From NCBI GenBank assembly GCA_003695915.1, contig RFGF01000036.1:1-38877 (forward strand): 38,877 nucleotides of DNA. The letters are read 5' to 3'. Positions 1 through 36,556 of this stretch are shown here, in pieces. The position numbers and the translations under genes were made by a program. The notes under the pieces are model-generated. The model worked only from the letters and a program-made list of their open reading frames with translations, was not told the DNA's origin and made no database searches. Positions within the stretch are counted from its first letter, which is position 1, and each line of letters opens with the position of its first letter. Origin of the DNA: Nitrospirota bacterium. Lineage in GTDB: Bacteria > Nitrospirota > Nitrospiria > Nitrospirales > UBA8639.

Positions 1-572
1 CCATGATCGTTCGCGCGCAGAACTGACAAAAGACGGCCCGGTGAATTATCTGCATTATGGTGACAATCACACGGCGACCGCCGTATACCTTGACCCCTCG
101 ATGAAAGATATGCCGCGGCTGCCAGCCCATCGAGCCAAAACGCTCGATCACCTTCAGCAAGGCAGTCAGGTGATGGTGGATGCGTCCGAAGAGTTAGAAG
201 ACGTTGGGAAAGCCGTTGAGATTGGTCGGGGGCAAGCCGGAGAAGAGACTGTCGCTGGACTTCATACCATCGCCGCTCGGTTTGACAACACCATCCTCGC
301 AGGGGGATTCAAGGCCTATGTGCAGTTTTGCCATCCTTTCGTGAACACCTCGATTGCCTCGCTGCGGGGGCGAAAGGTTGCGCAACGAACCGTGCGCATG
401 TTGCGAGTTTGGAAATACCCCTTCCAAGCATTAGAGAGCAAACCGCCATCGCCCATGTTTTGCACGATATGGGCGCCGAGTTCATCGCTCTGAAAGCCTG
501 CCGCGCAAAACCCACGCAATCAAACAGGGCATGATGCAACAACTCCTCACCGGCCGGGTGCGACTGTCATAA
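1..572 (+). pseudogene. hsdS: type I restriction-modification specificity subunit (HsdS), C-terminal part, two frameshifts
   Basis: This is the C-terminal part of an HsdS subunit, which recognises the target sequence for a type I restriction-modification complex. The start lies left of the window. The readable stretch opens with ELTKDGPVNYLHYGD and includes VAGLHTIAARFD, both typical of one HsdS class. The protein then continues in two other frames: one carries ATNRAHVASLEIPLPS and REQTAIAHVL, the last carries QGMMQQLLTGRVRL before TAA at 570-572. The first frame change is near 335-340 (restored by one C in a CC run), the second near 505-512 (restored by one A in AAAA). Both therefore behave as one-base deletions. 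The complex also needs HsdM and HsdR; HsdM is not in view and HsdR is truncated downstream. The family call is firm; whether the lesions are real or sequencing errors is open. Confidence 0.85.
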
Positions 573-589
573 CCTAGGATAGCGGATTC

Positions 590-2188
590 ATGGGCAAAGA
601 GAAGCGGAAGGTTGACCTGACTGTGTATCTCGCAAAAGAAGAATGTGCTGAGCCATCAAATGTTGTCAAAGCTGACAAGGTAGAAAGGGAAATTTCCCTC
701 TCCGGCGGTCAATTGTATATAGCAGGAAGTCACTCCTATCCCCCTCGGTGGGCTGCATTTTTCGAAGGCTCTGTAGATAGTGATGATTTCGGCAGAAATC
801 AGTCGACTGGGGCTTTGCTCGTTGTGCAAGCGAGCAACCGATTGCTCCTATTTTGCTTTGGCCAAGGGCGGCATCTCGCTAGAACGGAGTGCATACAGCC
901 AAACTTTGGCCTACGTGTGGCCATCAATCTGCTCGATCCTAAAAGTATTCGCAGTCTGGATAAATCTTTACTGGAATCACAGCCTAAACAGGCTCGAGAA
1001 CAATCGGGAGAAGCAGTCGGACTGGACTTTTTCGGGATCGACATCGAATCGGATCTGCTCAGGGCTATAACCGGCAGGCCGAAATCTGATGAATTCGGCA
1101 AGCGCCTATCGGGTGGAGACCCTGTCAAACTCTCGATCAATATCTCGCTGAATGAAGTTACGGACCTAGCGACAAAGCTTTTGCAAGCCTATTCAAGCGA
1201 AGCATACAAAAACGGCCCTTTCGCCTGGATTGATCACATTGGCCAAGTCAAGGACAAGTCGTTACGTGAGGAGTTGGACAGCAAATTGATAGAGTCATTG
1301 AATCAAAAGAACTTTGATCGTGTCTGGCTTTGTGCCCCGAAAATCGTGGAGTGGGAAAGAGTCGCGGGATTCAAATATTCGTCCGGCAATAATGCCATTC
1401 AGTACCCTGATACGCGCATAAATGAATGTTTACAAGAAATAGCAACAAACAAGATAAGTCTGGAATTGCTCAAGAGAAGGAAAATTCAGGCTGTCGATGA
1501 AGAAGATGCTCCCATCTTTGAGGATACCGTTTATCGATTCATCTATGCGGAGATTGAACTTGAAGGCAAGGCGTATATCCTGAATGCTGGCACGTGGTAT
1601 TCGGTGAATTCGGATTACGTACAGCGAATACAGCAATACTACGAAAACATTATGAGGGAGAAGCAATACGAGCATAATTTGCCGGAATACAACGATGAGA
1701 GTGAAGAGAAATACAATCGACGTGTAGTCGAAAGCGATACTCAAAATTTTGCCCTGATGGATAGAAACCTTATTTCTTTGCCAGATGCTGCAAGCCCCGT
1801 CGAACCCTGTGATATCTATAGGCGAGAAAAAGAGTTAATTCATGTAAAAAAGTACGGTGGATCGGCGGTGTTGAGCCATCTCTTCCATCAGGGGCTCGTT
1901 TCAGGAGAATTACTGAAGAGGGAGTTGGAATTTAGAAAAGCGCTTAACCAAGGATTGCCCGAGCACTTGAAAATTAACGGGATTGAAAACCAGCCTGGCC
2001 ACAATGAATACACCATTGTCTACACAATTATTAGCGAGCAAGAACAAGGGCTGAACTTGCCTTTTTTCTCGAAAATCAGCATCAAACACGCGGTTAATCG
2101 CCTTGAGGCGTTTGGCCATAAGGTGAGAATTGCCAAAATACCGGTGGCGGAAATGAAAAAGCAGACCAAGAAGTACCCATCGGCGTGA
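590..2188 (+). CDS. DUF6119 / TIGR04141 family sporadically distributed protein
   Basis: The 532-residue product has the hallmarks of the TIGR04141 (DUF6119) family: an early GALLVVQASNRLLLFCFGQGR segment (residues about 75-97), then FGLRVAINLLDPKSIRSLD (about 107-125), a phenylalanine-rich FFGIDIESDLLRAITG segment (about 148-163) and a WIDHIGQVKD motif (about 215). No signal peptide or membrane segment is visible, so it is probably cytosolic. The biochemical role of this family is unknown to me; it is known for patchy distribution and for sitting in restriction-modification and other defence loci. Here it starts 17 bases after the hsdS remnant and is followed by rhuM-fic and a cut hsdR. The reading frame is intact although both restriction genes around it are broken. 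Its codon use looks more A/T-rich than the housekeeping genes further right, which fits transfer. The family call is firm; a defence role is inference. Confidence 0.8.
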   Translation: MGKEKRKVDLTVYLAKEECAEPSNVVKADKVEREISLSGGQLYIAGSHSYPPRWAAFFEGSVDSDDFGRNQSTGALLVVQASNRLLLFCFGQGRHLARTECIQPNFGLRVAINLLDPKSIRSLDKSLLESQPKQAREQSGEAVGLDFFGIDIESDLLRAITGRPKSDEFGKRLSGGDPVKLSINISLNEVTDLATKLLQAYSSEAYKNGPFAWIDHIGQVKDKSLREELDSKLIESLNQKNFDRVWLCAPKIVEWERVAGFKYSSGNNAIQYPDTRINECLQEIATNKISLELLKRRKIQAVDEEDAPIFEDTVYRFIYAEIELEGKAYILNAGTWYSVNSDYVQRIQQYYENIMREKQYEHNLPEYNDESEEKYNRRVVESDTQNFALMDRNLISLPDAASPVEPCDIYRREKELIHVKKYGGSAVLSHLFHQGLVSGELLKRELEFRKALNQGLPEHLKINGIENQPGHNEYTIVYTIISEQEQGLNLPFFSKISIKHAVNRLEAFGHKVRIAKIPVAEMKKQTKKYPSA

Positions 2189-2264
2189 AAACTATGGCGA
2201 TTCTTCTTCTTGAATTTCTTTTTATTGGATAAGGACCGAGCTCCGTAGAACTACGGGAACAGCA

Positions 2265-3269
2265 ATGAACAATCTCGTCATCTTCGAAGATGATATGCAT
2301 CGGATCGAGGTGCGACTTGCGGTGGAGACGGTCTGGATGACGCAGGCCCAAATGGCCGAATTATTCGATGTCCAGAAAGCGGCCATTTCTAAACACCTAA
2401 GGAATATTTTCACCATGGGCGAGCTTGAACGAGAGTCAACTGTTTCCAAAATGGAAACAGTTCAAAAGGAAGGGGACCGAACGGTCGTACGCGAAATCGA
2501 ATATTACAATCTCGATGCCATCATTTCCGTGGGCTACCGTGTCAACTCGGTGCGGGCCACCCGTTTTCGTCAGTGGGCCACCCGTGTGCTGCGCGAGCAT
2601 CTGACCCAAGGCTATTCCCTCAATCAGTATCGGCTGGCGCAGCGGGGTCTCGCTGAACTGGAGCAAGCCGTCGCATTGCTGGGTAAGACGCTGGTCAGAC
2701 AGGAATTGGTCTCGGACCTCGGTCGGGAGGTCGTGGGCTTGATCTTGAGTTACGCCAAGACTTGGCGTCTGCTGTTGGACTATGACGAAGGGCATCTTGC
2801 GCCACCTGCCGAGATGCATCCGGCACGCGGTGTGCTGGATTATTCGGCGGCCAGGCGGGCGCTGGATGCCTTGGCTGCAGAACTGCGCGCCCGTGGTGAA
2901 GCCAGCGAACTGTTTGCCCGAGAACGCGGGGAAGGCTTGGCGGCCATTCTTGGCGCTATCGCACAAACCATGTTTGGCGAACCGCTCTATAAGACCAGCG
3001 AGGAACGGGCCGCGCACCTGCTCTATTTCGTCATCAAAAATCATCCCTTCGTTGACGGCAATAAACGCTCTGCGGCCTTTCTGTTCTTGCTGTATTGCCG
3101 ACAAGAGGGGATACCCCTCACACTCGATGCCAATGCCTTGACAGCGTTGACGCTCCTGATTGCCGAAAGCGATCCCAAAGCCAAGGATTTGATGACACGC
3201 CTCGTGACCCATTTGCTGACCACAGGTACGAGTTCACCAGACACTCCCGATAAGGCGGGAACCCCTTGA
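2265..3269 (+). CDS. rhuM: RhuM family protein with C-terminal Fic/Doc domain
   Basis: The 334-residue protein joins two domains. Residues about 1-120 match the RhuM (virulence protein) family: an early VRLAVETVWMTQAQMAELF segment, a helix-turn-helix-like stretch (AAISKHLRNIF), and the YYNLDAIISVGYRVNS motif typical of the family. Residues about 150-325 form a Doc/Fic-like fold with HPFVDGNKRSA at 260-270. This is the Doc version of the Fic motif, with lysine where AMPylating Fic proteins usually have G or R. Fic enzymes modify target proteins with nucleotides, and Doc phosphorylates EF-Tu; which applies here cannot be read from sequence. RhuM-Fic fusions are common inside type I restriction loci, as here. 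The stop codon overlaps the hsdR remnant's TTG start by four bases (TTGA), suggesting translational coupling. No antitoxin-like gene is visible beside it. Confidence 0.88.
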   Translation: MNNLVIFEDDMHRIEVRLAVETVWMTQAQMAELFDVQKAAISKHLRNIFTMGELERESTVSKMETVQKEGDRTVVREIEYYNLDAIISVGYRVNSVRATRFRQWATRVLREHLTQGYSLNQYRLAQRGLAELEQAVALLGKTLVRQELVSDLGREVVGLILSYAKTWRLLLDYDEGHLAPPAEMHPARGVLDYSAARRALDALAAELRARGEASELFARERGEGLAAILGAIAQTMFGEPLYKTSEERAAHLLYFVIKNHPFVDGNKRSAAFLFLLYCRQEGIPLTLDANALTALTLLIAESDPKAKDLMTRLVTHLLTTGTSSPDTPDKAGTP

Positions 3270-3547
3270 TCCCTGTCGGCCGACGCGAGATTCAGACCCA
3301 ACAGCGGGTGATCGTGTTCTTTACGGACGCATTGGGGCATCGCTATCTGGGCAACTGGCGAGACCGTGCGGGCAACAGCAACGTCGAGGAAGCGTTGCTC
3401 ACTGACTGGCTCATTCGTCAGGGCTACAGCGACAAGATCATCGGCAAGGCGCTGTTCGAGCTCGACAAGGCAGGGGGGCTCGGCTTGCGTTCACAATTCT
3501 TCTTGTTTCATTTCTTGCCAATGTATCGCATGCCATCGATCCCATAA
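3266..3547 (+). pseudogene. hsdR: type I restriction endonuclease subunit R (HsdR), N-terminal remnant
   Basis: The first 70 codons match the extreme N terminus of HsdR: IPVGRREIQTQQRVI, then RYLGNWRDRAGNSNVEEALL and LIRQGYSDKIIGKALFELDK, the segment that precedes the nuclease domain. HsdR proteins are about 1000 residues, but similarity stops at about base 3474 and the frame runs into unrelated residues before a stop at 3547. None of the other frames continues the HsdR sequence, so this is a loss of DNA, not a simple frameshift. The likely start is the TTG overlapping the rhuM stop codon. No nuclease or helicase domain remains, so the fragment cannot restrict DNA. Confidence 0.85.
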
Positions 3548-3751: not shown

Positions 3752-4501
3752 ATGCAACGCCTACGCGCAGCAGTCGTATTGGTTCTCATGGGCATCCTGT
3801 TTTCAGGATGCGCGGCCATTCATACGTCCATCGCCAAAAAGGATCTAGACGTTCAAACGAAAATGAGCGACACCATCTTCTTGGATCCTGTGGGACCGGA
3901 TAAAAAGGTTGTTTTCGTCCAGATCCGCAACACTTCGGATAAATCCAATTTCGATATCGAAGCGCCGATCAAAGCCGCCTTGACCCAAAAAGGGTACAAA
4001 ATTACGGATGACCCAGAAGAAGCGTACTATCGCTTACAAGCCAATGTGCTCAGCGTCAGCAAAGCCAGTCCTACCGCTGCCGAGGCGGCGTTGGCTTCCG
4101 GATATGGCGGTGCGTTGGCTGGCTCCGCTACCGGAGCAGGAATCGGCCTAGCGGCAGGCGGCGGCAAGGGGGCTTTGGTAGGCGGCTTGCTCGGTGCAGC
4201 AGTCGGCGGGTTGACGGAAACGGTTGCCGATGCGTACGTCAAAGATGTGACGTACATGGCCATTACCGATGTGCAACTGGTCGAAAAAGCGCCGAAGGGG
4301 GTGATCGTCCGCCAGGACAGTGCCCAAAATCTCGCACAGGGTATGGCGGGAACACAAAAGCAGACCTATTCGGAGGTCACCAAACTCAAAAAATATCGGA
4401 CGCGAGTCGTGAGTACCGCGAACAAAGTCAATCTCGAATATGAGGAAGCGGCTCCGGAACTGACCAAAGGACTCACGCGCGTGCTGGCCGGATTGTTTTA
4501 A
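3752..4501 (+). CDS. TraT-family (complement resistance-like) outer-membrane lipoprotein
   Basis: The 249-residue product has a lipoprotein signal: a basic N terminus, a hydrophobic core, and FSGC with the lipidated cysteine at residue 20. The mature part carries VQIRNTSDKSNFDI and a glycine-zipper segment of about 45 residues (GSATGAGIGLAAGGG onward) typical of TraT. Plasmid F TraT (about 244 residues) blocks mating between like donors and protects from complement. Chromosomal homologues in free-living bacteria have no known role, and no transfer genes are nearby, so the mating function should not be assumed. Start: ATG at 3752 after AAAGGA, with a good promoter upstream. The next gene begins 35 bases after the stop and is probably cotranscribed. 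The frame is intact and the length normal. Confidence 0.88.
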   Translation: MQRLRAAVVLVLMGILFSGCAAIHTSIAKKDLDVQTKMSDTIFLDPVGPDKKVVFVQIRNTSDKSNFDIEAPIKAALTQKGYKITDDPEEAYYRLQANVLSVSKASPTAAEAALASGYGGALAGSATGAGIGLAAGGGKGALVGGLLGAAVGGLTETVADAYVKDVTYMAITDVQLVEKAPKGVIVRQDSAQNLAQGMAGTQKQTYSEVTKLKKYRTRVVSTANKVNLEYEEAAPELTKGLTRVLAGLF

Positions 4502-28720: not shown

Positions 28721-29677
28721 TCATACCGAGGTCGAGACGCCGAACGCGGCCTTGGCGTACTGCACTCGCTCGTTCAGGGACCAGTGGGCGCATCGTTCAT
28801 GCTCAACCTGCCGCAGGCAAGCCAGCAAGCCTCTGCGATTGGCGATCTGAATGTTGAGTCCGGGGCGGGCATTGAGTTCGAGAATGAGCGGACCGACGCG
28901 CGCATCGAGCACAAAATCCACACCCTGATATCCTAACCCGGTCAATTCGTAACACCGAGCAGCTAGGAGCAACAGCTCTTCCCAGCGAGGAAGAGCCACC
29001 CCAGCAATCGGGGCTTCCGTATCCGGATGCTCATAAATAATCTCGTTGTTCCAAACGCCTGTGAGCGTTTTTCCCTGTGCGAGGTCGATGCCGACACCGA
29101 TGGCCCCCTGGTGCAAATTGGCTTTCCCATCGGATAAGCGCGTCGGCAATCGCACCATGGCCATGACCGGCACGCCAAGAAACACGATGATCCGAATGTC
29201 GGGCACGCCTTGATAACTGATCGGTTCAAAGACGGGATCGAAATGGACACAGGCTTCGATCAACGCTTTGTCCGGAGCACCGCCCAGACTGTACAAGCCG
29301 CTTAAAATGTTGGAGACATGATGATCGACCTCGTCTTGCGCCAGCAGATGCCCATTGGCTTTGCGGTAGCGATGCCCCCGTCGACCTGTGATCACCAAGA
29401 TTCCGTCTCCGCCGCTCCCATGGGCCGGTTTGATCACGAAGTCTTCGTAGGAGCTGAGCATGGAGCCCAGATCTCTGATCTGATGTTCATGCTCGATAAC
29501 ACCGTACAAGGCCGGGGTCGCGATTCCCGCCTGCTCAGCCAGGCGTTTGGTGGCCAGCTTGTCATCGACGAGCGGATACAGTCGCCGCGGATTGTAGCGC
29601 AGCGTGAACTCCGCATTGCGGCGGTTGATGCCGAGCACGCCGCGGGCGTTGAGTGCGTGAGCGAGCGCCAGCCACAT
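28721..29677 (-). CDS. ATP-grasp alpha-L-glutamate ligase-like protein (RimK-related)
   Basis: The 318-residue product is an ATP-grasp ligase of the RimK-related 'alpha-L-glutamate ligase-like' family. The nucleotide-binding part has VIKPAHGSGGDGILVI (about 83-98), and the metal-binding C-terminal part has ILELNARPGLNIQIANRRG (about 273-291). Family members are proposed to form amide bonds to a peptide or small substrate; the product is not established. It is intact and comes 22 bases after the 7TM gene, with the retropepsin-like protease upstream. This three-gene arrangement is a known conserved cluster described in comparative-genomic work on amidoligases. A GGAGACC site precedes the ATG. 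Confidence 0.88.
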   Translation of the reverse strand: MWLALAHALNARGVLGINRRNAEFTLRYNPRRLYPLVDDKLATKRLAEQAGIATPALYGVIEHEHQIRDLGSMLSSYEDFVIKPAHGSGGDGILVITGRRGHRYRKANGHLLAQDEVDHHVSNILSGLYSLGGAPDKALIEACVHFDPVFEPISYQGVPDIRIIVFLGVPVMAMVRLPTRLSDGKANLHQGAIGVGIDLAQGKTLTGVWNNEIIYEHPDTEAPIAGVALPRWEELLLLAARCYELTGLGYQGVDFVLDARVGPLILELNARPGLNIQIANRRGLLACLRQVEHERCAHWSLNERVQYAKAAFGVSTSV

Positions 29678-29699
29678 GGAAAGGTCTCCATTTCAGGAT

Positions 29700-31251
29700 T
29701 TAGGTTTCTCGCGCCAGGGCGCGAAATCGGATCAATTCGAGCAGACGGAATCCGGAATAGCGACCCAACAGCAACATCATCGCCAGGATGACGAGTAGGA
29801 GTTCGGGAAACACAAACAGCAGATGATCCAGATAGGGGACCGTCATAACGACATAGGCCAGTGCCGCCATGAGCAGACTGCCCAGTCCTTGTTGAAGGGC
29901 AACGCGTGGACCGCGTTCTTCCCATACAATGCACATTCGTTCAATCGTCATCGTCAAAATGACCATTGGAAACAACGCCACGGACAGGCCGCGCTCCAGG
30001 CCCAACTTATGCGTCACGATGCTGATCGCCAACATAATCAGAATGACGGTCACCAACACGGCCGCCAAACGAGGGACCAGTAATAATCTGAGATGTTCCA
30101 AGTAAAAACGAACGAGAAGTCCCACCGCCACCACCGCGGAAAAGAGGATCAGCCCCCATGTCAATTGCGTTTCCCGAAACGCCAGTGCAATCAAAATGGG
30201 CATAAACGTACCAAAGGTCGTGACCCCGACCACATTTCGCAAAATGACAAGCAGGAGTGCACCCAACGGGACCATCAAGATAATCCGATATACCGCCTGC
30301 GTATCCAAGGGGAGCGCAAAGAGCGAAAATTCCAAGAGCGAAGTCCCGCCGACTTGGCTGCTCAGGATCGTTGACCGAATAGCCTCCTCTTGGTTCGGCG
30401 AGACCGAAATCCGCACATCGAGTTTTTCGCCGCCCTCGATGTCGACCAACGGCTGCGTCCCGCGCCACCATGCTAGATAGTGCATGGGCACAAACGGCGC
30501 TCCGGTGTCCGGATCATAGGCTCTCCACCCCCTTGTTCATACACCATGAGCCAATGCACCGGCATGACCTGACTGGGAAACGGAAGTAACGGTATCCCAT
30601 TGATGATTTTGGTCGGCATGCCGTTGCGGATGAGGATATACGCAGCGATCTGCAGTTTGAGTGACAGTGGAGCAGTGGGCGGAACGAGCGTCCGCACGTG
30701 AGGATCGTCCGCAGGGCGCCTAAGCCGTCTGAGCAATTCGGCAACGAACGTTTCCGCATCGGCCGATTTTTCACGAATATCTACCAACAACGCTTGGGCC
30801 GCTGCCTCCTGGGCCTCGGTCAGCGAGAGGACAGGCAGATCGGCTGGTGCCTTGCGAGACAATTCGGTCTTGGAGGCCATAGACGCTGCCGGCTGGGGTC
30901 CCTCCACCTGACGCACGAGCACCCGGTAATACAAATCCTGACGACCCTGCGCTTTCCGCTTGGACCACGTGGCCACACGATTGCCATTGGCTTCCGAGGT
31001 CAAGAGCCCATACCCATAGCTGACAAAATTTTCGTCGAGTATGACATGTCGTCGTGAGCTTTTAGGCAAAAACATGACGACTTTGACCGGCCGCGCTTGG
31101 CAACAAATTTGAGATGGACTTCGACGGTCCAAAGCTCGGTCTGGACATGTGGTGTTAACGGAAAGCCAAGAATGAAGGCTTTATAACCGAAGAGACCGAG
31201 GCCGCACAGGCTCAAGCCCAGCGCGAGGAGCTGGACATGGCGCATGCTCAT
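29700..31251 (-). pseudogene. inactive transglutaminase fused to seven membrane helices, two frameshifts
   Basis: The gene encodes a family in which an extracytoplasmic transglutaminase-like domain without its catalytic residues is fused to a membrane domain of seven helices. An N-terminal signal anchor (LLALGLSLCGLGLFGYKAF) and VQTELWTVEVHLKF lead the first frame; PVKVVMFLPKSSRRHVILD through MPVHWLMVYEQGG the second; and YDPDTGAPFVPMHYLAWW followed by the membrane domain (VYRIILMVPLGALLLVIL onward) the third. The first change is near 31094-31100, the second in a run of five C at 30528-30532 where a sixth restores the frame. Both are one-base deletions. It overlaps the protease stop by four bases (ATGA). 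With repairs it is about 516 residues, the usual size. Confidence 0.85.
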
Positions 31252-33508: not shown

Positions 33509-36500
33509 TCACGTGCGGAGGGGACCCCTTTTCGATTGATTGGTTTGTTCGTATGCATCGCGCAAACGATTCATGAGGTGAGCATGCTTTTTTTGCAGTT
33601 CGAGACGGGCAGTCAAAGTCCAAGACTCATCATCATGTGGCAAAAAACTTCCCTGGAAGAGAGCAGCAGCTCGCTCGCCTAAATTGAGTGCCGTGTTAAA
33701 TTCCCCGTTCGTTGATTCTTGATCCACAGCCTTGATCAGGCAATGCACACTAAGGCTATCCACCCAGCAGATTTCATGATTGAGGCTTAGGGCGCCTCCT
33801 TTCGACACTATCGCTTCCTCATGCCTCAACAACTTTCGTAAACGCGAAATGGTCGTAACCAGGGACCGATAAGCCGCATCGCCATCCGAATCCGGCCAGA
33901 GCGTATCAATCAATTTGTGCTGGGACACGTTGGTCCCGCCAAAAGCGATGAGGGCTTTTAATAAATTCAACGGCCCTTTCGGGACTTTTCTCGAAAACTC
34001 CACTGGTACGTGATCCACCTCAAGGTCAAACCGCCCTAAGGTGTATATCTTCACCGGCCAAGGCCACTTTTCCGACGTAAGAACCGGCTCTTCGGGTGTC
34101 AGTTGCAACTTCCGAATCACTTCCCGTGCTCTGTCCACTTCCACGCCCACCTCTAACGCTTTGGCACACAACCTCGCCATAATCCTGGGATGCCAGAATG
34201 GTGCGGTGATCAGATCCTGTTCTCGGCCAATACGTAACCAATCACTGATCGCCTTGATAGCCTCGGAATCATTCCGGCGGGCTAACATCCATTGGGCTTG
34301 TAAACAATTCCTAAAGAAATCCAATATGCGGCAGGGTGTCGATTGACACAGTGCCGAGAGATGACGAATCTGATTCTCTCCTTTCTTCAGATCGCCACAT
34401 GCAATAAAGATTTCTCCCATATGAAAGCCGAGCAACCCATCGAGAAATGCACAGTCTTTGGTGAGATTTGTTTCGATATGTTTGCCCGCATATTGGTAGG
34501 CTTTATCAAGATCGCCCTGAAGAAAAGCCACATACGAGGCAACATAGAGATAACCTGCTCTCCGCAACCCCGTTGCGTTCTCAGCTTCGGGCCGGATTTC
34601 TTCTACCAGACGGGCGGCTCTCTCGTAATCCCTGCTGAAAATCGCTCCTGAAATTCCTTGAGCCTGCAAATGCATGGGCAGAATTTGGATCCCATAGCTT
34701 TTGATCATCGCTCTTCCTTCTTCGTATGCCGCCATGCATTGAGGTCCATTTCCCGTCAAATTACCTTCAAGGGCTTTGGCATTCGCAAACCAAGCTTTTG
34801 CGAGCGGTGCGACCTCGGTTGAATTCACCCATGATTCTGCCATGCGGAATACGGATTTCCTCTTTTCAGCGTAACCCAACCAACTCCAGAAACTATATAA
34901 ACTCCACCCAGCTAAAACTCGTAGAGAAGGGTCTCCAAGATGGGGCAGTAAAGCTTGAAGGCGTTCTTCCCATTCGAAAATCGTTGGATCTGAAATCCGA
35001 CTATAGGTCATACCCAGGAACATGGTCTGCGTAATGCGCGCCTCCATTTCCTCGGATGGAAAATTAAATCCCGGTGGAACGATCGCCTCGAAGCGGTCTA
35101 TCCACGGCGACAACTTTGAAAAATCCCCTTCCGAATAGATAATGGATTCCATGACCCCACACCAGGCCAATAATTTGCCAACTTCATCCTCGGTGGTCGT
35201 AAATTCCGCAAACAGGTTTTCGAATAACGGGATACTGTTATTCGGATTGCGTAAAAATTGACAATTGGCTGCCCAGTATCGCAGCCAGGGATTCGCCTCT
35301 CGACGGTCGGCTGGTACGTGTTGCAGCCATTTCTCCACTGTGGACACTCGCCCTTCTTGAAGAAATTGCGGCGCATGAGAGAGCAACAGTCGTTCCATCT
35401 CTGCAACTTGTCCGGCATCTTGATAGAGCCCAAAGGCTTCATCCACCCGATCGGCTTGCTCTAACAGATGGCCGGCCTGCCGCTGAATCTCTTTCACCTG
35501 GCTTGGACTCCACGTCTCCTTCGCTTGCTTGATTAAAAATTCCCGAAAGAGCGGATGGAATTGGAACATGGGCTCCGTCCCAGGTCGACGTTCGGTGAAA
35601 TACCGCGCGCGGGCCATCCGCCCTAAGGTGCGTCCGGCTCCGGGTTGGTCCGTGAGTTCGAGCGCCATCGACACCGTGGTCGATGGTAAAAACGCTGTTC
35701 GCAGCAACACGTCAATAGCGTCCTTGCTTTGCGTGGCCAGCACTTCGCGCGCCAAATAATCAAAGATCACGGGCGAACTCGCCTCTTGCGCCTCGAAGAG
35801 TTGCCGCACATTGGTTTCCGATTGATTGAGGAGCAAGACTACGCCAGCCACCCATCCATCCGTCCGCGCTTGAAGCCGCGACACGACGTCCTGTGTCGAA
35901 ACCACGGCTTTCTTGGAAAGGCTCCACAGGTCAACAAGCGCTTTGATCTCATCCAGAGTCAACTCGAGATGCGTGGCGTCCAACTCTGCCAACACTTGAT
36001 CAGCTTGGAGTCGGGCCAAAGCTGTGGGAACCGGTTGTCGACTGGCCACGATCACCGTCGTGTCCAAGGGAATAATCGTCAACGCCTCACGCATCAACTC
36101 ATGAAAGGGTGTCTCATCTGGCACTTCTTGGTAATTATCAAAGACAACCAGTCCTGGAGTTTTTAGTCGACTATAGAGCTGCTCAAAGACCCGACGAGTA
36201 AAAATAGGCAGCCCAGCGAGATATTCAGGCCGCACGGTGGGAAGAGGTTTTTTAAACCGGGGCGCGACCCGCTTCATCCCCAAAGAGAGATAGTGAAACC
36301 ACGTCCCAGGGTCCGCATCGCCTGCATCGAGTTGGTACCAAAGCGGTTTGAGCTTGCGGGCTCGGAGATAAGTGGCCACGAGTGTAGTTTTCCCGGCTCC
36401 GGGCGGGCCCTGAATCCAAACGATACGATGGTGTTTCTTGAGCTGATCGAGTTCTTTGAACAGTCGAGGCCGGTCCACCACTGGAGGCAATTGAGGTGGT

Positions 36501-36556
36501 GTCAGTTTGGCAAGTTGGGGAGTAGAGCGTTTCACGAGATGAACATCCTCGCGCAT
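33509..36556 (-). CDS. large STAND-ATPase transcriptional regulator with C-terminal BTAD-type DNA-binding domain
   Basis: The 1015-residue protein combines an N-terminal STAND-type ATPase (Walker A GPPGAGKTT at 50-58, Walker B LVVFD ending at D140, and a MalT-like VIVASRQPVP sensor motif), about 600 residues of helical TPR-like repeats, and a C-terminal OmpR-like winged helix (IYTLGRFDLEVDHVPVEFS onward, about 838-930) followed by a bacterial transcriptional activation (BTAD) domain. Such regulators sense a ligand by the repeats, then oligomerise with ATP and activate transcription. The long uninterrupted frame argues for a functional gene. It is divergent from fadL, its likely target, across 506 bases. 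The ATG has no strong ribosome site, and a stable hairpin lies in its leader. Confidence 0.88.
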   Translation of the reverse strand: MREDVHLVKRSTPQLAKLTPPQLPPVVDRPRLFKELDQLKKHHRIVWIQGPPGAGKTTLVATYLRARKLKPLWYQLDAGDADPGTWFHYLSLGMKRVAPRFKKPLPTVRPEYLAGLPIFTRRVFEQLYSRLKTPGLVVFDNYQEVPDETPFHELMREALTIIPLDTTVIVASRQPVPTALARLQADQVLAELDATHLELTLDEIKALVDLWSLSKKAVVSTQDVVSRLQARTDGWVAGVVLLLNQSETNVRQLFEAQEASSPVIFDYLAREVLATQSKDAIDVLLRTAFLPSTTVSMALELTDQPGAGRTLGRMARARYFTERRPGTEPMFQFHPLFREFLIKQAKETWSPSQVKEIQRQAGHLLEQADRVDEAFGLYQDAGQVAEMERLLLSHAPQFLQEGRVSTVEKWLQHVPADRREANPWLRYWAANCQFLRNPNNSIPLFENLFAEFTTTEDEVGKLLAWCGVMESIIYSEGDFSKLSPWIDRFEAIVPPGFNFPSEEMEARITQTMFLGMTYSRISDPTIFEWEERLQALLPHLGDPSLRVLAGWSLYSFWSWLGYAEKRKSVFRMAESWVNSTEVAPLAKAWFANAKALEGNLTGNGPQCMAAYEEGRAMIKSYGIQILPMHLQAQGISGAIFSRDYERAARLVEEIRPEAENATGLRRAGYLYVASYVAFLQGDLDKAYQYAGKHIETNLTKDCAFLDGLLGFHMGEIFIACGDLKKGENQIRHLSALCQSTPCRILDFFRNCLQAQWMLARRNDSEAIKAISDWLRIGREQDLITAPFWHPRIMARLCAKALEVGVEVDRAREVIRKLQLTPEEPVLTSEKWPWPVKIYTLGRFDLEVDHVPVEFSRKVPKGPLNLLKALIAFGGTNVSQHKLIDTLWPDSDGDAAYRSLVTTISRLRKLLRHEEAIVSKGGALSLNHEICWVDSLSVHCLIKAVDQESTNGEFNTALNLGERAAALFQGSFLPHDDESWTLTARLELQKKHAHLMNRLRDAYEQTNQSKRGPLRT

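Follow-up and report, generated by a model that had tools for sequence, protein, structure and literature searches.

Two intact candidate defence genes, DUF6119 and RhuM-Fic, in the stump of a type I restriction-modification operon from a Nitrospirota bacterium

The window (the whole stretch of 38,877 nucleotides of Nitrospirota DNA analysed here) was found to open on what is left of a type I restriction-modification operon, in which hsdS and hsdR are damaged while the two genes lying between them, encoding a DUF6119 protein and a RhuM-Fic protein, are full-length (Table 1). This anatomy had been described in the original prediction; in addition, hsdM was found to be gone, and the locus does not hold the complete hsdM, hsdS and hsdR set of a type I system. 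The two intact genes are probably unrelated single-gene defence cargos that were embedded in the operon and outlived it. The original order would have been hsdM-hsdS-DUF6119-RhuM/Fic-hsdR, with a cargo slot between hsdS and hsdR; deletions would have taken hsdM together with the 5' half of hsdS, as well as nearly all of hsdR, and each cargo would have stayed intact since it works, or is retained, without the Hsd complex. DUF6119 would most likely be a metal-dependent nuclease with a predicted PD-(D/E)XK-like C-terminal domain and a variant D...H-x-K centre, whose N-terminal ~340 residues may serve in nucleic-acid contact or in sensing infection. RhuM-Fic would most likely be a separate toxin-like effector, in which an N-terminal RhuM part is joined to a Fic transferase whose target would be a protein of the host or of a phage. 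Both would presumably protect against phage, and selection rather than recency would lie behind their survival. Restriction loci harbour many defence candidates as embedded genes, but whether such genes depend on the host operon has rarely been shown, and a destroyed operon with retained cargo offers a natural test of that dependence.

Table 1. Remnants and intact genes of the type I locus (positions in the window).
Feature	Position	Strand	State	Matches
hsdS remnant	11-573	+	3' 45% of gene, two frameshifts	tblastn with P. juntendi HsdS; PADLOC Specificity_I
DUF6119/TIGR04141	590-2188	+	532 aa, intact	PF19614; TIGR04141
RhuM-Fic (PADLOC candidate PDC-S23)	2265-3269	+	334 aa, intact	PF13310 + PF02661; PDC-S23
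hsdR remnant	3266-3547	+	first ~73 codons (3266-3484), then unrelated sequence to stop	PADLOC REase_I; tblastn

The remnants were read against intact plasmid loci, the best reference being a type I locus of a Pseudomonas juntendi plasmid with the order hsdM-hsdS-323 aa gene-hsdR; a type I locus on a Rhodococcus plasmid gave the same picture of decay. The hsdS remnant corresponds by tblastn to residues 229-413 of the 414 of the P. juntendi protein, comprising the second target-recognition domain and the C-terminal conserved region, with its natural 3' end retained. It runs through three frames in turn (window 11-340 in frame 2, 304-519 in frame 1 and 504-566 in frame 0) and therefore carries two frameshifts, near 304-340 and near 504-519; the Specificity_I model matched it in two frames. 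Both frameshifts are no more than 540 bases away from the contig end of a draft assembly, and the hsdR truncation sits well within the contig. What is left of hsdR matches residues 4-73 of ~1,031-1,035 by tblastn (window 3275-3484; about 7% of the gene) and positions 3-73 of the 1034 of the REase_I model, is 49-51% identical to the plasmid HsdR, and overlaps with its start the stop of RhuM-Fic. No additional hsdR or hsdM fragments were found in the flanks by tblastn with the intact plasmid reference.

The window starts at base 1 of contig C64, in a draft genome of 3.7 Mb and 135 contigs, and its bases 1-99 form an exact 99-base overlap with the end of contig C25 (6,909 bases), which is very probably its upstream continuation. 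C25 carries modA, modB and modC directly upstream, followed by ~300 bases to the hsdS stump, and no hsdM was found on it; hsdM is therefore missing too. Downstream of the hsdR stump, a lipoprotein-like gene follows at 3752. The relative G020, used as an empty-site comparison, has 28 kb between modABC and the downstream lipoprotein gene with no hsd genes in the interval, and the sequence beside the hsdR stump had no match in relatives; neither result gives a date for the deletion ends. Elsewhere in the same genome there are three further HsdR genes with long open frames; thus, type I restriction genes remain in the cell despite the loss at this locus. Other genes in the window include an RlaP-type nucleotidyltransferase (PF10127; 5061-5738, minus strand) close to the locus on the opposite strand, a run of three minus-strand genes at 28724-31132 encoding an ATP-grasp protein (PF14397), a 7TM transglutaminase-associated protein (PF14402) and an inactive transglutaminase (PF14400), and an open frame of 1,015 aa at 33512-36556 (minus strand) with no Pfam match at E 1e-5.

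The intactness of the cargo genes was evaluated against their families. DUF6119 matched the whole PF19614 model (E 7.6e-145; 484 bits against a cut-off of 27) and TIGR04141 end to end (E 7e-146; 486.7 bits against 35), and, aligned with 59 relatives (29-37% identical), it retained 25 of 25 invariant and 25 of 28 near-invariant positions. Its closest relatives are ~35-37% identical, none close enough for dN/dS. Similarly, RhuM-Fic matched PDC-S23 end to end (positions 5-324 of 327; E 1.7e-118), with PF13310 and PF02661 both above cut-off, and retained 23 of 24 invariant and 41 of 46 near-invariant family positions. From residue 260 it carries the Fic motif HPFVDGNKR, which fits HxFx(D/E)GN(G/K)R and was found as the same type in 28 of 30 relatives. 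An inverted repeat (CCGTAG-AA-CTACGG, window 2243-2256) lies just upstream of its start, and might be a putative operator for the DNA-binding part of RhuM-Fic or a product of chance.

A homologue of RhuM-Fic, ~70% identical, lies within an intact type I locus (L159, genome G286). Between the two genes, NG86 gave a dN of 0.233 and a dS of 2.07, a ratio of ~0.1 that is approximate since the dS is saturated; the differences at codon positions 1, 2 and 3 numbered 81, 63 and 171. Three relative-rate tests (window branch against the other: 26 v 16, 22 v 18 and 20 v 34) revealed no consistent acceleration on the window branch. The low dN relative to dS and the steady branch indicate that RhuM-Fic was constrained for most of its history, with decay undetectable. 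Neutral evolution in both genes, which the original prediction had named as a result that would speak against it, was thus not what was found for RhuM-Fic.

It is conceivable, and to our judgement rather unlikely, that the decay is recent and that both cargos are non-functional passengers which by chance are still unhit. The remnants are still 46-67% identical to the intact plasmid homologues, so the damage need not be old, and the constraint figure covers RhuM-Fic, not DUF6119. Additionally, a search upstream of the two genes yielded no sigma-70-like promoter, which, with the hsd promoter lost, agrees with passengers and counts against surviving cargos. The expectation that passengers should decay equally, from which the original prediction argued, proved a fair but weak argument: two frameshifts in 563-773 remnant bases compare with none in 2,604 cargo bases, where several would be expected under equal rates, and the P of ~0.01-0.03 for zero (rate uncertainty allowed for) is suggestive only and depends on hsdS frameshifts beside a contig end. 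Nevertheless, this count, the retention of every invariant DUF6119 residue and the absence of a consistent excess of changes on the RhuM-Fic branch all argue against mere recency.

The occurrence of both genes elsewhere was determined next to that of the hsd genes. A two-motif profile scan of species genomes yielded at least 187 DUF6119 relatives, and 85 loci besides the window were classified, namely those of the best 80 of the 187, which are not a random sample, together with plasmid, phage and phylum loci. Flanks of 8 kb or more to either side were available for 52 of these loci; hsdM, hsdS and hsdR were all present in 14 of the 52, hsdR only in one and no hsd gene in 37, as called by HMMs built in this analysis, with which diverged type I genes can be missed. 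DUF6119 was also found as cargo of a Pseudomonas prophage, adjoining an integrase, and on a Rhizobium plasmid without hsd genes; it is rare in the phylum (3 of 396 genomes above cut-off), and no relatives were found in viral contigs. RhuM-Fic is more common there, PDC-S23-type matches occurring in 194 of the 396 genomes, many of them partial. The 40 RhuM-Fic loci analysed in the phylum comprised 22 with hsd genes, typically in the order hsdM-hsdS-RhuM/Fic-hsdR, and 18 with none. A Methylophaga plasmid has the order M-S-RhuM/Fic-R, and other plasmid copies stand alone outside type I loci.

Both genes had been described beforehand as known from restriction loci, and each does occupy the hsdS-hsdR slot of intact loci, as in M-S-DUF6119-R (L056), M-S-DUF6119-Abi_C-R (L085) and M-S-DUF6119-HepT-R (L102) for DUF6119; each is also found alone. 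Their operon-like, often overlapping order within hsd loci would suit accessory subunits of the restriction enzyme that are now stranded, which we regard as very unlikely because no hsd gene was seen in most of the DUF6119 loci or in almost half of those with RhuM-Fic, and because other gene types (GIY-YIG, Abi_C, HepT and one for an unassigned 323-aa protein) take up this slot in other loci. Moreover, the HsdM, HsdS and HsdR proteins of L159 showed no significant similarity to the window remnants while its cargo is ~70% identical, and so the cargo moves and evolves independently of its restriction host. The 323-aa protein, encoded in the slot of the P. juntendi plasmid (L200:6577-7548), has no Pfam match and contains a motif, ILTAQHV, that looks trypsin-like by eye.

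The independence of the two genes suggested in the original prediction was supported in so far as each can occur without hsd genes and RhuM-Fic is not detectably decaying; the further proposal of a toxin or abortive-infection pair found no support. The two are adjacent in the window, on the same strand, both intact and 76 bases apart, as might be expected of a dedicated two-gene module, and RhuM without Fic adjoins DUF6119 in two other loci, L133 and L113 (the latter also encoding an MmeI-like enzyme), and is a near neighbour in L121. However, the window was the only locus in which DUF6119 adjoins RhuM-Fic: DUF6119 occurred in 0 of the 40 RhuM-Fic loci, and RhuM of any kind was found in the flanks of only 3 of the 85 DUF6119 loci, all three of them restriction loci, and Fic in none. 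Order and spacing vary as well, L133 reading hsdM-RhuM-DUF6119-hsdS with hsdR farther along and L121 reading M-DUF6119-S-RhuM, with RhuM beyond hsdS and the RhuM-Fic HMM match spanning only the first 132 positions. The finding that the original prediction had set against its pair, that the two never occur together outside full type I loci, is therefore nearly what was obtained. A toxin-antitoxin or abortive-infection pair was rejected on this co-occurrence and is highly improbable; DUF6119 and RhuM-Fic share a habitat and no partnership. In three genomes of the same family (loci L155, L156 and L157), RhuM-Fic adjoins a second RhuM gene within a type I locus.

Returning to two independent cargos, a possible activity of DUF6119 was sought in its predicted structure. 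No relative with a solved structure was found by sequence search, and no PADLOC model fits it well. AlphaFold2 with 60 sequences gave a pLDDT of 93.2 for the whole protein and 96.4 for residues 340-529 modelled alone. This C-terminal part (residues ~340-529, bases ~1607-2176) is predicted to form a PD-(D/E)XK-like domain, with an order of elements that fits the core of that fold (helix, three strands, helix, strand). VIA-align scores for the whole model (HamA 7.1, EndoMS 7.1, SfsA 6.7, R.BspD6I small subunit 6.0, CdiA-CT 6.0, Card1 5.6, BstEII 5.3, PfoI 5.1 and SduA 5.0) and for the C-terminal domain (HamA 7.0, SfsA 6.8, Can2 5.9, OkrAI 5.9, McrC 5.0, BglII 4.9 and NucC 4.9) all fall below Z 8, the range for which the tool cautions that an arrangement may be a common one, and ~5 is also reached by unrelated entries, CD38 among them. 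Most of the PDB entries among the top rows are members of the PD-(D/E)XK superfamily. Foldseek gave no meaningful significant match in the PDB for the whole protein or the domain, the top row for the domain being the CdiA-CT nuclease 4zqu (probability 0.99, E 0.006), and the viral structure library returned a phage exonuclease (probability 1.00, E 3.6e-4). The resemblance of the domain to a nuclease fold is thus a consistent lead rather than proof.

The residues marked in the domain are E372, D391, E405-x-C-D408, H418-x-K420, S425 and Q434. D408...H418-x-K420 is invariant, with His418 in all 60 sequences, and in the model D408 stands just before a strand and H418-x-K420 on the next one. These residues occupy the place of D...(D/E)-x-K, by which the sequence supports the fold independently; the canonical motif itself is absent, a histidine standing at the acidic position, and DUF6119 is accordingly proposed to work like a PD-(D/E)XK nuclease rather than claimed as a canonical member. 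The CdiA-CT domains TA271 and YPIII belong to the PD-(D/E)XK superfamily with E177, D198, S209 and K211, and are Zn-dependent DNases (PMC9086364). As these S-x-K nucleases are active, the loss of the acidic residue in DUF6119 is compatible with activity. At the other end of the protein, residues 5-205 (window 602-1204) resemble the DNA-binding RdgC (2owl; Z 6.5, likewise within the cautionary range), and the viral fold search listed a phage 'recombination associated protein' (probability 0.44); the RdgC-like appearance of the predicted N-terminus is a weak lead.

Put together, DUF6119 could be an unrecognised and widespread family of single-gene anti-phage nucleases, a proposal that we make tentatively and consider open to more doubt than the survival of the cargos as such. 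Its C-terminal domain would be PD-(D/E)XK-like, built around an invariant D...H-x-K centre that perhaps uses Zn, and would follow what is possibly an RdgC-like N-terminal domain contacting DNA. The gene would travel singly, occurring on plasmids, within prophages and in the hsdS-hsdR slot of type I loci, and would be able to outlive these loci. No paper on DUF6119, TIGR04141 or PDC-S23 was found in the library searched, the single mention of DUF6119 being in a wheat gene-family paper. A family so numerous in one scan of species genomes now has a specific catalytic hypothesis, and that this hypothesis can be tested is the most useful outcome of the analysis.

The embedding approach to defence candidates reportedly originates with a 2024 preprint by Payne and colleagues. 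The 'guilt-by-embedding' candidates PDC-S23 and PDC-S05 (RhuM, RhuM-Fic) are among the nearest likenesses of the locus, as the window RhuM-Fic matches PDC-S23 and sits in the typical hsd slot; here, however, the surrounding restriction operon is damaged and another cargo gene lies alongside. Single-gene candidates of this embedded type (PDCs) form a recognised class, most of which have yet to be validated (PMC12988326), and RhuM, often fused to DOC, had been suggested in 2013 to be a toxin of restriction loci (PMC3710099). The hsdS-hsdR gap is likewise a described cargo site, occupied by DarTG2 in the RptR island (PMC12255303). DarTG2 resembles the genes described here as an independent defence module in the same gap, but as a toxin-antitoxin pair it belongs to an intact, regulated island and has demonstrated anti-phage activity, whereas the window holds two unrelated candidate genes in a decayed locus. 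HamA of Hachiman, SduA of Shedu and the CdiA-CT domains TA271 and YPIII share with DUF6119 the predicted C-terminal fold and the D...X-x-K arrangement, and in CdiA-CT the acidic residue is replaced as well. DUF6119 differs from them in a Z of only ~5-7, within the cautionary range, in a His for Asp/Glu in 60 of 60 sequences, in another N-terminal part and in having no constant helicase or immunity partner seen near it.
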